NCBI RefSeq assembly: GCF_000993825.1
Contig: NZ_CP011114.1
Location: forward strand, 1,054,001 to 1,118,000
DNA: 64,000 nt
Origin: Paenibacillus durus ATCC 35681
Lineage (GTDB): Bacteria > Bacillota > Bacilli > Paenibacillales > Paenibacillaceae
Direction: 5' to 3'
Position numbers and translations under genes: made by a program. Below are positions 36,031 to 61,769 of the stretch, piece by piece. Numbering within the stretch: the stretch's first letter is position 1; every line of letters starts with the position of its first letter. The notes under the pieces are model-generated. The model worked only from the letters and a program-made list of their open reading frames with translations. It made no database searches and was not told the origin of the DNA.

Positions 36031-36080
36031 CCCCACAAAGTGAAGCTTGACTTCGAAGTATAATCAGGTACTTTGCGGGG
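36031..36080 (-). repeat. 50-bp palindromic repeat, copy 1 (between pheS and pheT)
   Basis: Ends form a stem CCCCRCAAAGT/ACTTTGYGGGG. Read on the minus strand it matches the element at 60399-60448: both are exactly 50 bp with the same ends (CYCCGCAAAGTACC at the left, TTCACTTTGTGGRG at the right) and a variable middle. Confidence 0.8.
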
Positions 36081-36166
36081 ACCCCGAAAGGATGGAAATT
36101 CTTCATATCGTAAGAGAAACGGCTTCGCCGTGCGGAAATCAACATTAAATAAGGAAGTGAGCGGAC

Positions 36167-59210: not shown

Positions 59211-60146
59211 TCATAGCCAATCTTTTTTACGGAATAGATACAGCATGCTGCAGCCTAGCGTCACCATGGCGCCAATGACGCCGTAGTAGCCGTATTTCGT
59301 GTGAAGTTCAGGAATATTATCAAAGTTCATCCCGTATATGCCGGTAATCACGGTCAGCGGCATGAATATGGTCGTAATCGCCGTAAACACCCGCATGATT
59401 TCATTGGCGCGGTTCGCGATACTGGATTGATAAGCTTCTCGCAAGTTGCCCATCAGGTCGCGGTATGTCTCGAATGTCTCGGAGATTTTGACCGCGTTCT
59501 CGTAGATGTCGCTGAAATATTTCTGCAGCTGGTCGTCGATCAGCCGTAAATCTTTTTTGTTGAGAGTGTTAACGACTTCCTTCTGCGGACCGAGCATTTT
59601 CTTCAGCCACAGAATTTCGCTTCGCAGACCGATAATTTCACTTAAGTGCGATTTCTTGGTATGCATTAGAATATCCTCTTCCAGCTTTTCGATCCGCACC
59701 TCGATCCGGTCGCCGACGGCGAAATAATTGTCCACAACAAGGTCGATCAGCAGATAGAGGAACCGGTCGGGCGCGCCGACCTCCTGCTCCCACAACATGG
59801 GCTTCAGTACGCGCAATTCGTTAATCTTCTGCTTCGTGACGGTAATGATAAAGTGCCGCCCAAGAAAAATATTAAGGGCGCGCAGGAAAATTTCCTCGTC
59901 GTCAAAACGGATGCTGTTTACCACAATAAAATAATGGCTCTCGTAAATTTCGATTTTGGGACGCTGTTCCTCATCGCTGAGGCAGTCTTCCACAGCCAGA
60001 TCGTGCAGATTGAACAGAGGCTGCAGCAGCTCCAAATCCTCCACGTCGGCGTCAATCCAATAGAACCCTTCTGTCGGAGGGTTAAGGGTCAGTTTAATAT
60101 CATCCACAGGGGTAAAAATGCCTGCATTAACCAGCCGGATCTTCAT
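59211..60146 (-). CDS. corA: Magnesium/cobalt transporter CorA (311 aa)
   Basis: A pentameric divalent-cation channel. A large cytoplasmic alpha/beta domain (about 1-250) senses Mg2+, and two C-terminal helices carry the selectivity motif Gly-Met-Asn in 'TGIYGMNFDNIPEL'. The last residues are basic ('YLFRKKDWL'), as usual. The ATG at 60146 is preceded by GAAGGAGTGAATCAG; the longer open frame is not supported. The upstream leader has a short ORF and a terminator-like hairpin, so expression may be controlled by attenuation. Confidence 0.95.
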   Translation of the reverse strand: MKIRLVNAGIFTPVDDIKLTLNPPTEGFYWIDADVEDLELLQPLFNLHDLAVEDCLSDEEQRPKIEIYESHYFIVVNSIRFDDEEIFLRALNIFLGRHFIITVTKQKINELRVLKPMLWEQEVGAPDRFLYLLIDLVVDNYFAVGDRIEVRIEKLEEDILMHTKKSHLSEIIGLRSEILWLKKMLGPQKEVVNTLNKKDLRLIDDQLQKYFSDIYENAVKISETFETYRDLMGNLREAYQSSIANRANEIMRVFTAITTIFMPLTVITGIYGMNFDNIPELHTKYGYYGVIGAMVTLGCSMLYLFRKKDWL

Positions 60147-60203
60147 CTGATTCACTCCTTCTCTCCCTAGCTTGCCCAGGGATATGCTTATGAAAGCACA
60201 GGG

Positions 60204-60293
60204 AAAAATCAGCTTGACCGGCGGTTGCAACTATGGACCGCTTTATATTCCGAAGGCATGAAGAAGAAGCGCTCCCGCCGCCGGCAAGCTGAT
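60204..60293 (-). terminator. Terminator-like hairpin in the corA leader
   Basis: On the minus strand ATCAGCTTGCCGGCGG (rc of 60278-60293) pairs along all 16 bases with CCGCCGGTCAAGCTGAT (rc of 60208-60224, one bulged T), followed by UUUU then CCC. The loop is 53 bases. It lies about 60 bases before the corA start, inside the leader. Confidence 0.7.
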
Positions 60294-60353
60294 ATTCATC
60301 CTGTACGGTTGTTCCTGATCAGCGCTGTGCTGCGTACTCGGGTCGCCTTCCAT
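60243..60353 (-). CDS. Short ORF in the corA leader (36 aa, candidate leader peptide)
   Basis: ATG at 60353 with AGAGGTG nine bases upstream, ending TAA at 60243. The product begins 'MEGDPSTQHSAD' and has a hydrophobic C-terminus ('SLPAAGALLLHAFGI'). Codons about 20-26 form the 5' arm of the terminator hairpin, so ribosome position would decide whether the hairpin folds. It has no recognisable homologue and could be chance. Confidence 0.4.
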   Translation of the reverse strand: MEGDPSTQHSADQEQPYRMNISLPAAGALLLHAFGI

Positions 60354-60398
60354 TCTTCATCTCACCTCTTTTATTAATAAAATTTATTATTTCAGGGT

Positions 60399-60448
60399 CT
60401 CCGCAAAGTACCGGATAGTCTTCTTAGCCAAGGCTTCACTTTGTGGAG
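60399..60448 (+). repeat. 50-bp palindromic repeat, copy 2 (between corA and metA)
   Basis: Same 50-bp element as at 36031-36080 (which lies on the other strand). Ends pair as CTCCGCAAAGT/ACTTTGTGGAG; conserved sequence extends leftwards as GGGTCYCCGCAAAGTACC. The centre differs between copies. Confidence 0.8.
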
Positions 60449-60606
60449 CGATCTCTGAAACCCTTGTCTAGTATAACGCCGGGTAATGCCTCTTTCAAGA
60501 AAAATTGTTGTCATCTTAAAGACTCTACGAACAGTGTATGGACTTGACGAAAGCCGGGTTCATGATTTAAAGTGATTTATAAGAATTTTAATTGAATATG
60601 TCCAAA

Positions 60607-60738
60607 TCTTATCAAGAGCAGGTGGAGGGACTGGCCCGATGAAACCCGGCAACCGGCGTGAAACGCACGGTGCTAATTCTTGCAGAGACGCAGGCCGATT
60701 GTAGGCAGTTTTGTTGCGTTGTCTGACAGATGAGAGAG
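60607..60738 (+). ncRNA. SAM riboswitch (S-box) upstream of metA
   Basis: All conserved S-box blocks are present: CTTATCAAGAG at the 5' side, GGAGGGACTGGCCCGATGAA, CCCGGCAACC, GGTGCTAATTC, and the closing CTGACAGATGAGAG. P1 pairs 60608-60613 with 60729-60734 (CTTATC/GATGAG). SAM binding would let the downstream terminator form and switch off metA-metI. Confidence 0.97.
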
Positions 60739-60851: not shown

Positions 60852-61769
60852 ATGCCGATCAAGATTCCCGACAGTCTACCCGCTAAGGAGATCCTATCCG
60901 GGGAAAATATTTTCGTTATGGATGAAAGCCAGGCCTTTCACCAGGATATCCGTCCTCTGCGGATCGCCATCTTAAACCTAATGCCCACTAAAGAAACTAC
61001 CGAAACGCAGCTGCTGCGTCTGGTCGGCAACTCGCCTCTGCAGGTGGATGTCACGCTGCTTCATCCAAGCTCCCATACCTCGAAAAACACATCGGCGGAG
61101 CACTTGGAGAGCTTCTATAAGACGTTTAACGAGATTAAGCACCGCCGTTTTGACGGTCTGATCGTGACGGGCGCCCCTGTGGAGCAGATGGATTTTGAGG
61201 ATGTGAACTACTGGGAAGAGCTGAAAGAGATTTTCGAATGGAGCAAGGACAACGTGACTTCGACGTTGCATATTTGTTGGGCGGCTCAGGCGGGACTTCA
61301 CTATCATTATGGCGTCCGTAAGGTCGGTCTGTCTGAGAAATGCTTCGGCGTGTTCCCGCACTGGACCACTGCACCGAATACCAAGCTGCTGCGCGGCTTC
61401 GACGAGCTGTTCTATGTGCCCCATTCCCGGCATACGGACATCTCACGCGAGGATGTGTTGAATACGCCGGATTTGCAGATATTGGCGGAGTCGGAGGAGG
61501 CCGGCGTTTATATCGTCGCTACCCATGACGGCCGGCAGATTTTTGTGACCGGGCACTCCGAGTACGATCCGTTCTCCCTGAAAGGGGAGTACGATCGCGA
61601 TATCGCGAAGGGGATGAATATAGCGCTGCCGAAGCATTATTTCCCGAACGATGATCCGGAGCGTACGCCGCCCGCCGTATGGCGCGCCCACGCGAACCTG
61701 TTGTTCTCCAACTGGCTTAACTATTACGTCTACCAGGAAACGCCATACGATATCGGGCCTGTAATATGA
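60852..61769 (+). CDS. metA: Homoserine O-acetyltransferase MetA (305 aa)
   Basis: Acylates homoserine in methionine synthesis. The catalytic Cys142 is in 'HICWAAQAG', His235 and Glu237 in 'TGHSEYDP'. Residue 111 is Glu ('GAPVEQMDF'); in MetA enzymes Glu111 goes with acetyl-CoA and Gly111 (as in E. coli) with succinyl-CoA, so this enzyme should make O-acetylhomoserine. GAAGGAGTGAGC precedes the ATG. It lies directly under a SAM riboswitch and is followed by metI. Confidence 0.97.

Follow-up and report, generated by a model that had tools for sequence, protein, structure and literature searches.

The corA gene of Paenibacillus durus ATCC 35681 is preceded by a short leader open reading frame (ORF) that is, in our reading, probably an acidic sensor start joined to an RNA switch, the latter setting access to the corA ribosome-binding site so that low Mg2+ would lead to more CorA. 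The computed support consists of the conservation of the ORF, its acidic pattern, the covariation between an arm inside the ORF and an arm 3' of it, the complementarity between this 3' arm and the corA site, and the dependence of the predicted opening of that site on where the ribosome stands. We infer that the leader ORF is translated and that ribosomes abort translation there, with Mg2+ as the signal and translation as the main level of control. The direction of regulation, more CorA at low Mg2+, is physiologically sensible. The locus lies in a stretch of 64,000 nucleotides (the window), and its parts are the following:

59211..60146, minus strand: corA, CorA-family Mg2+ transporter of 311 aa (PF01544, 232 bits, above the curated cut-off; ATG at 60146)
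60147..60161, minus strand: GAAGGAG (60161-60155), the ribosome-binding site of corA, with its spacer; in the predicted OFF fold, the 3' arm is paired to 60158-60155 and 60153-60147
60183..60200, minus strand: small alternative hairpin (60200-60194/60189-60183), predicted to exclude the basal helix between ORF arm and 3' arm
60196..60224, minus strand: 3' arm, including the T-run 60208-60204; it is predicted to pair in the ON state with the ORF arm, and in the OFF state with the region of the corA ribosome site and start and with the small downstream hairpin
60243..60353, minus strand: leader ORF of 36 codons, MEGDPSTQ..., with an ATG start and acidic codons 2 and 4 (from the ORF translation and relatives)
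60278..60306, minus strand: 5' arm within the leader ORF, codons 16-26 (60306-60300 basal, 60293-60278 upper), from folding; the basal helix covaries
60363..60369, minus strand: ribosome-binding site of the leader ORF, AGAGGTG, nine bases 5' of the ATG
60371..60455, minus strand: interspersed hairpin element inserted in the 5' UTR, outside the conserved switch and absent from most same-genus corA leaders
60470..60498, minus strand: sigma-70-like promoter TTGAAA-17-TATACT of the corA transcript, 10/12 matches, kept in same-genus genomes

The full leader ORF of the window (60353-60243, minus strand) reads MEGDPSTQHSADQEQPYRMNISLPAAGALLLHAFGI. The original prediction had described a 36-codon frame with a good ribosome site upstream of corA, and this description proved correct, including the nine-base gap between AGAGGTG and the ATG. 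Taken by itself, the promoter scan is at chance level, with 3 sites found against 2.8 expected; the promoter stretch is conserved in the genus (positions 1-45 of the leader DNA query; genus denotes the genus label g1 in all counts), and the promoter block often lies only 15-20 bases 5' of the conserved ORF stretch in same-genus genomes. The small alternative hairpin was recognised by eye in relatives as CCTATGCTC..GAGCATA.

The stem at 60455-60371 in the 5' UTR was considered as a riboswitch and rejected, as it is an interspersed repeat element with other copies in the genome. This hairpin element is about 70-90 nt long, CCACAAAGTG...GTACTTTGCGGGGACCC, with window copies at 60371-60455 (minus strand) and 36033-36089 (plus strand) and 7 other matches in the same genome at E up to 0.1. 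In L047 (Rfam match), one copy directly follows the end of the 23S rRNA, and the same holds for L049 by sequence likeness; tandem copies occur in L040 and L054. In L026 and L028, a different AT-rich insert of about 100 nt lies between promoter and leader ORF, and given this second, unlike insert at the same place, the spot seems to tolerate insertions. On the plus strand, a SAM riboswitch (RF00162, 74.6 bits, 60606-60736) stands before a divergent gene (60852-61769), which looks like a gene for homoserine O-succinyltransferase.

The conservation of the leader ORF was assessed in 57 genomes of the family, from 19 genera, that were selected by a CorA protein search only and picked so that genera and genomes lacking a clear DNA match were represented too. 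An M-[E/D]-G-[D/E] ORF is found upstream of corA in 51 of them, a count that requires a ribosome site followed by ATG GAN GGN GAN and that is made up of 48 of the 53 parsed upstream regions and of L099, L104 and L107; the pattern arises in 5 of 10,600 dinucleotide shuffles, against these 48 of 53. The strict ORF was seen in 17 of the 19 genera, and the starts among the 48 leaders include MEGDP, MDGDP, MEGDR, MEGDG, MEGDS, MEGDH and MEGEG. The exceptions are L149, L150, L151 and L152, with variant starts read by eye (MGDDRPCP, MGSEGPDI twice, and MNGDSPEP), and L128 and L144, in which no leader ORF was seen upstream of corA. L063 has the ORF, and the same genome is counted as L105. Among the matches listed in a search by CorA, 79 of the 80 named loci have the ORF as well; these loci may overlap with the family genome set, and their titles are all Paenibacillus except for one Neobacillus and one Bacillus record; L241, the only one of these 80 without the ORF, still has GAGGTG near the corA ribosome site. 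L128, L144 and L241 offer natural cases for an unregulated corA.

At the order level, 22 leaders from nine other families, drawn from 44 non-family genomes with a CorA match, comprise 16 strict M-[E/D]-G-[D/E] starts and 6 close acidic variants (MDAEP, LDGDR with a TTG start, MDSDP, MDGNP, LDGEP with a TTG start, and MDIDR), the latter obtained with a looser filter that required a ribosome site plus an acidic residue among codons 2-4. All 22 leaders have an acidic position 2 and 21 of them an acidic position 4, and position 3 is Gly in 19, otherwise Ala, Ser or Ile and never Pro. Within 330 nt upstream of the first matched residue, a span that takes in part of the gene itself, the ORF was found in none of 20 corA paralogues; with the span widened to 600 nt and the ribosome site not required, one of the 20 matches, at -578. 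At the class level the ORF was absent from the 3 parsed upstream regions among 9 loci of another family (57-61% CorA identity).

A DNA search with the leader in 295 family genomes matched the stretch from the ORF ribosome site to corA in 36 of 43 same-genus genomes, the own genome included, and the same-genus and other leaders that were read have M[E/D]GDP in common before corA, with one MEGDS. A search with the ORF-start pattern gave 4 leaders of two other genera; loci in other genera found via the ORF start also sit before corA and have different tails, e.g. MEGDPSPQRTTQEYQ... and MEGDPRPSWQQDG.... The own genome contains the pattern GAGG-N3-14-ATGGANGGNGAN 4 times, in the corA leader and at the starts of reading frames of 503, 75 and 68 codons. 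Among 75 non-redundant leaders, 49 have GAGGTG as the ribosome site of the ORF. Of 121 leaders, 96 carry Pro at position 5, and the rest carry Arg, Gly, Ser, His, Asn or Thr. Counts for codons 2-4 over the 121 leaders are circular, since the ORF was found by that motif and Gly at position 3 was fixed by the search; the fairer figures for conservation are 51/57, 79/80 and 16/22 (22/22 with the variants).

The leader appears to be built of two parts that are conserved in different ways. The first residues are conserved with varied codons, at the order level also with varied start codon (ATG or TTG) and position 3, and they are fixed relative to the start codon; past codon ~8, the peptide differs between genera. 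An RNA arm, GCAYAGG, lies near codon 17, and its frame relative to the ORF varies: each of the three frames occurs (in 30, 7 and 1 of the 38 leaders having the arm), which suggests that it is probably selected as RNA. In a consensus fold of 62 non-redundant leaders, the pairing of the basal ORF arm with CCYRUGC 3' of the ORF was found unprompted, and its most variable position holds U-A in 22 leaders, C-G in 19, U-G in 9, G-C in 1 and non-pairs in 11; this set was taken from the 113 of 170 distinct leaders with a recognisable arm, near-duplicates removed, and is thus biased towards arm-bearing leaders. In L034, L069 and L081-L083 (genus g18), a stretch like GGGGCTCTTTCGTTTCCCGGTG in the second half of the ORF is kept across different frames, as judged by eye, and seems to be an RNA element at the apex of the hairpin.

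It could be argued that the conserved start is itself an RNA or protein-binding element and the ORF untranslated, and codons 2-4 in the family are indeed mostly GAA GGC GAC, more uniform than a peptide requires. At the order level, however, codons, start codon and position 3 change while the acidic residues at 2 (22/22) and 4 (21/22) stay, and a ribosome-site-like sequence lies 5' of the conserved start, so that we regard an untranslated element as very unlikely.

The original prediction had placed one arm of a 16-bp, one-bulge hairpin inside the ORF, and this hairpin was recovered: 60293-60285 pair with 60216-60208 (9 bp) and 60284-60278 with 60224-60218 (7 bp), with 60217 as the bulged base, the arm at codons 21-26 and then five T at 60208-60204. 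The basal helix, 60306-60300 with 60202-60196, sits beyond this T-run. The folding energy of the hairpin is moderately unusual (z -2.2; 5 of 200 shuffles equally good), and it is absent from the output of a simple terminator scan because that scan accepts loops of 3-8 only. The proposed coupling of an ORF with RNA structure before corA, as in mgtL and corL, is upheld as well, as the ORF is conserved with corA and the RNA arms covary. The lack of conservation that would have spoken against the prediction was not seen: in relatives, the ribosome site and start of the ORF are kept far more often than chance would allow.

The role first assigned to the hairpin is another matter. It had been predicted to terminate transcription at its U-tract unless a slow or stalled ribosome in the ORF blocked it; the coupling of ORF and RNA stands, whereas the terminator role and the sign of the regulation are doubtful, as the T-run is patchy outside the genus and the 3' arm could also pair with the ribosome site of corA. 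Such attenuation, in which a ribosome held at codons ~15-25 would prevent termination and corA would be read through, agrees with the GC-rich stem of the window running straight into U5 and with a T-run of at least 5 after the ORF in 34 of 40 leaders of the genus, but a T-run of this length is present in just 27 of 81 leaders elsewhere in the family. The same-genus leader L005 has a broken T-run yet keeps both alternative pairings, with a computed switch of +4.8 kcal/mol; the basal helix past the U-tract covaries well and is not needed by a terminator; the loop is ~50 nt; the conserved acidic start lies far 5' of the arm; and no conserved antiterminator was seen by eye. One candidate antiterminator, GCTGATC (codons 11-13) pairing with ATCAGC, was dropped, as most relatives, inspected by eye, are without it. 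A terminating hairpin would oppose the freeing of the ribosome site, and for this reason termination is ranked second; we consider it unlikely as the explanation of the leader.

The T-run of the genus nevertheless looks like a real terminator, which would counter an ON hairpin, and it is not fully explained by pairing, because CACU should pair with the corA site better than UUUU. Both devices could in principle operate in the genus, the hairpin ending some transcripts and the translational switch setting CorA output in those that read through, and the U-tract is indeed commonest in the genus, atop a switch predicted family-wide. Termination and switch would, however, pull the one hairpin in opposite directions, and such a combination appears quite unlikely. 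The folding models suggest that the hairpin taken for a terminator more likely represents a translational switch in its ON state.

A translational switch would need a second partner for the 3' arm, and the window has a candidate in the region of the corA ribosome site and start, through the complementary stretches CUGAUUU/GAAUCAG (60212-60206:60153-60147) and UUCC/GGAG (60205-60202:60158-60155). Complementarity in other leaders takes the form of UCCCUUUCCU/GGGAAAGGGA, CUGAUAUC/GAUAUCAG and CAUUCCUUAUGCU/AGCAUAAGGAGUG, among others, and at least 6 contiguous pairs between 3' arm and corA site are present in 60 of 62 leaders, via 44 different helices. This count says little alone, because the mean weighted helix is 7.75 for native arms and shuffled arms already reach 6.0. 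When partners were swapped between leaders, which leaves the relatedness between leaders in place, the native partner paired better in 58 of 62 leaders for the ORF arm and in 51 of 62 for the corA site; by a second pairing measure, the native partner was better in 44 of 62 leaders for the ORF arm (p 1e-5) and in 38 of 62 for the corA site (p 8e-5). Shuffling the arm within single leaders is a weaker test for the corA site, because pyrimidine-rich arms pair easily with purine-rich ribosome sites; at the 5% level, 12 of 31 leaders pass in g1, 10 of 26 in g18, 2 of 3 in g7 and 0 of 2 in g8. Taken together, folding and comparison predict mutually exclusive helices, one of which covers the corA ribosome site, with g10, g12, L279 and L289 as exceptions. 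In the predicted OFF fold of the window, the ribosome site and start of the leader ORF (60368-60347) also pair with its later codons (60269-60253, minus strand), and a feedback on leader translation by this pairing is possible.

Given this complementarity of the 3' arm, the corA site is predicted to be hidden while a ribosome sits on the 5' arm and to stay free when the ribosome stops earlier. We modelled the ribosome as 30 nt blocked around one codon in 75 non-redundant leaders of the 121 (near-duplicates removed). When the ribosome occupies codons 2-8, the mean cost of opening the corA site is 3.1-3.5 kcal/mol; it rises to 5.4-6.2 kcal/mol at codons 14-26 and is 3.7-4.1 kcal/mol at codons 29-32, compared with 4.8 kcal/mol without a ribosome. 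The difference between codon 20 and codon 5 is +2.7 kcal/mol (+3.0 in the window) against -0.4 kcal/mol in dinucleotide shuffles of the stretch from ORF codon 13 to the ribosome site, and the leaders exceed their own shuffles in 65 of 75 cases and in 15 of 17 genera (genus-level p 8e-5), g10 and g12 being the two that do not. The 22 order-level leaders, which had no part in forming the idea of the switch, give the same values, +2.7 against -0.4 in shuffles, and 20 of the 22 exceed their shuffles (p 7e-6; L279 and L289 do not), with a change of less than 1 kcal/mol in seven of them. The OFF state would need steady translation, because a ribosome past the arm frees it again, as the opening cost at codons 29-32 indicates.

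Based on these data, we propose the following model of a translational switch. The sensor would be the first residues, M-[E/D]-x-[D/E] (here MEGDP), and the remaining codons would act mainly as RNA. Ribosomes that stop or drop off within the first ~11 codons would leave the ORF arm (codons 16-26) free to pair with the 3' arm, so that the corA site is open (ON), whereas ribosomes running through codons ~14-26 would melt the ORF arm and allow the 3' arm to pair with the corA site and start (OFF). At low Mg2+, the acidic start may destabilise the ribosome, by analogy with MgtL (EPDP) in E. coli, and CorA would rise. Ribosome destabilisation was reportedly first demonstrated by Chadani and co-workers in 2017.

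Three enterobacterial leaders can be compared with this model. The EPDP of MgtL is reported (PMC11282234) to be ribosome-destabilising with drop-off at low Mg2+, an effect abolished by mutating Glu2 and Asp4. MgtL of mgtA (E. coli, Salmonella) is like the corA leader in being a short ORF before a Mg2+ transporter, with acidic residues at 2 and 4, a proline next and an RNA with two folds. It differs in its output, described as Rho-dependent termination as against the predicted access to a ribosome site, and in having Pro at 3 and 5, where the corA leaders usually have Gly at 3 and do not keep the alternating EPDP. MgtL belongs to another phylum, and the likeness is claimed for the first residues only. 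Closer in output is MgtQ of mgtB (Salmonella), whose acidic residues 2 and 5, according to PMC8092293, reduce its own translation and promote the fold in which the downstream ribosome site is free, a case of translational control. MgtQ has 8 codons, lies within an operon between mgtC and mgtB and has the ribosome cover region 1 of a four-part switch; the corA leader ORF, in contrast, has ~28-55 codons, lies at the start of the mRNA and itself contains the arm that would be melted. CorL of corA (E. coli, Salmonella) shares the downstream gene family, and in E. coli the translation of corL is inversely related to corA expression (PMC11552253). CorL is Rho-dependent and is reported to have fewer acidic or proline residues. 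By prediction, the corA leader would work like MgtL and MgtQ; membership of either is not claimed.

In a keyword search of the open-access literature, the matches listed included no description of a corA leader peptide from Paenibacillus or any other member of the Bacillota, and the leader has probably not been described before as a Mg2+ sensor. The M-box (ykoK, RF00380) controls Mg2+ transport in cis in Bacillota. Unlike the mechanism proposed here, it is a direct aptamer, and the corA leader of the window has no match to it: an Rfam cmscan of 60140-60620 at E up to 10 gave three unrelated matches only, all below gathering scores, and RF00380 was not matched. Searched across the own genome, with a positive B. 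subtilis control, the M-box was not found, and under stricter filters it was found in 9 of 59 family genomes and not in the other 50.

The ribosome could also report something other than Mg2+. ABC-F factors and EF-P are reported to affect acidic and Asp-Pro motifs (PMC11282234, PMC11381351), and the leader might thus answer the general state of translation, such as ribosome stress or the supply of EF-P or ABC-F, or another ion that CorA carries. The leader is, however, tied to this corA and not to its paralogues, and the own genome, with no M-box detected, has room for another Mg2+ sensor; a signal other than Mg2+ therefore seems rather improbable to us, and Mg2+ remains the preferred one.

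To our knowledge, Mg2+ sensing through destabilisation of the ribosome by its nascent chain is known only from enterobacteria. The wider proposition, that the leader is an order-wide Gram-positive sensor with the ribosome as the sensing device, of an origin independent of the enterobacterial MgtL and MgtQ, and that it stands in for the M-box, is in our view evenly balanced. If it is true, the acidic pattern at positions 2 and 4 before corA across the Paenibacillus order would indicate a general and repeatedly used device, and would provide a Gram-positive system, with different ribosome-associated factors, for testing whether destabilisation works by itself. With a conserved acidic start linked to corA throughout an order, the convergence of ribosome-based Mg2+ sensing can be put directly to the test, and the leader suggests a route to Mg2+ sensing for bacteria without an M-box riboswitch.
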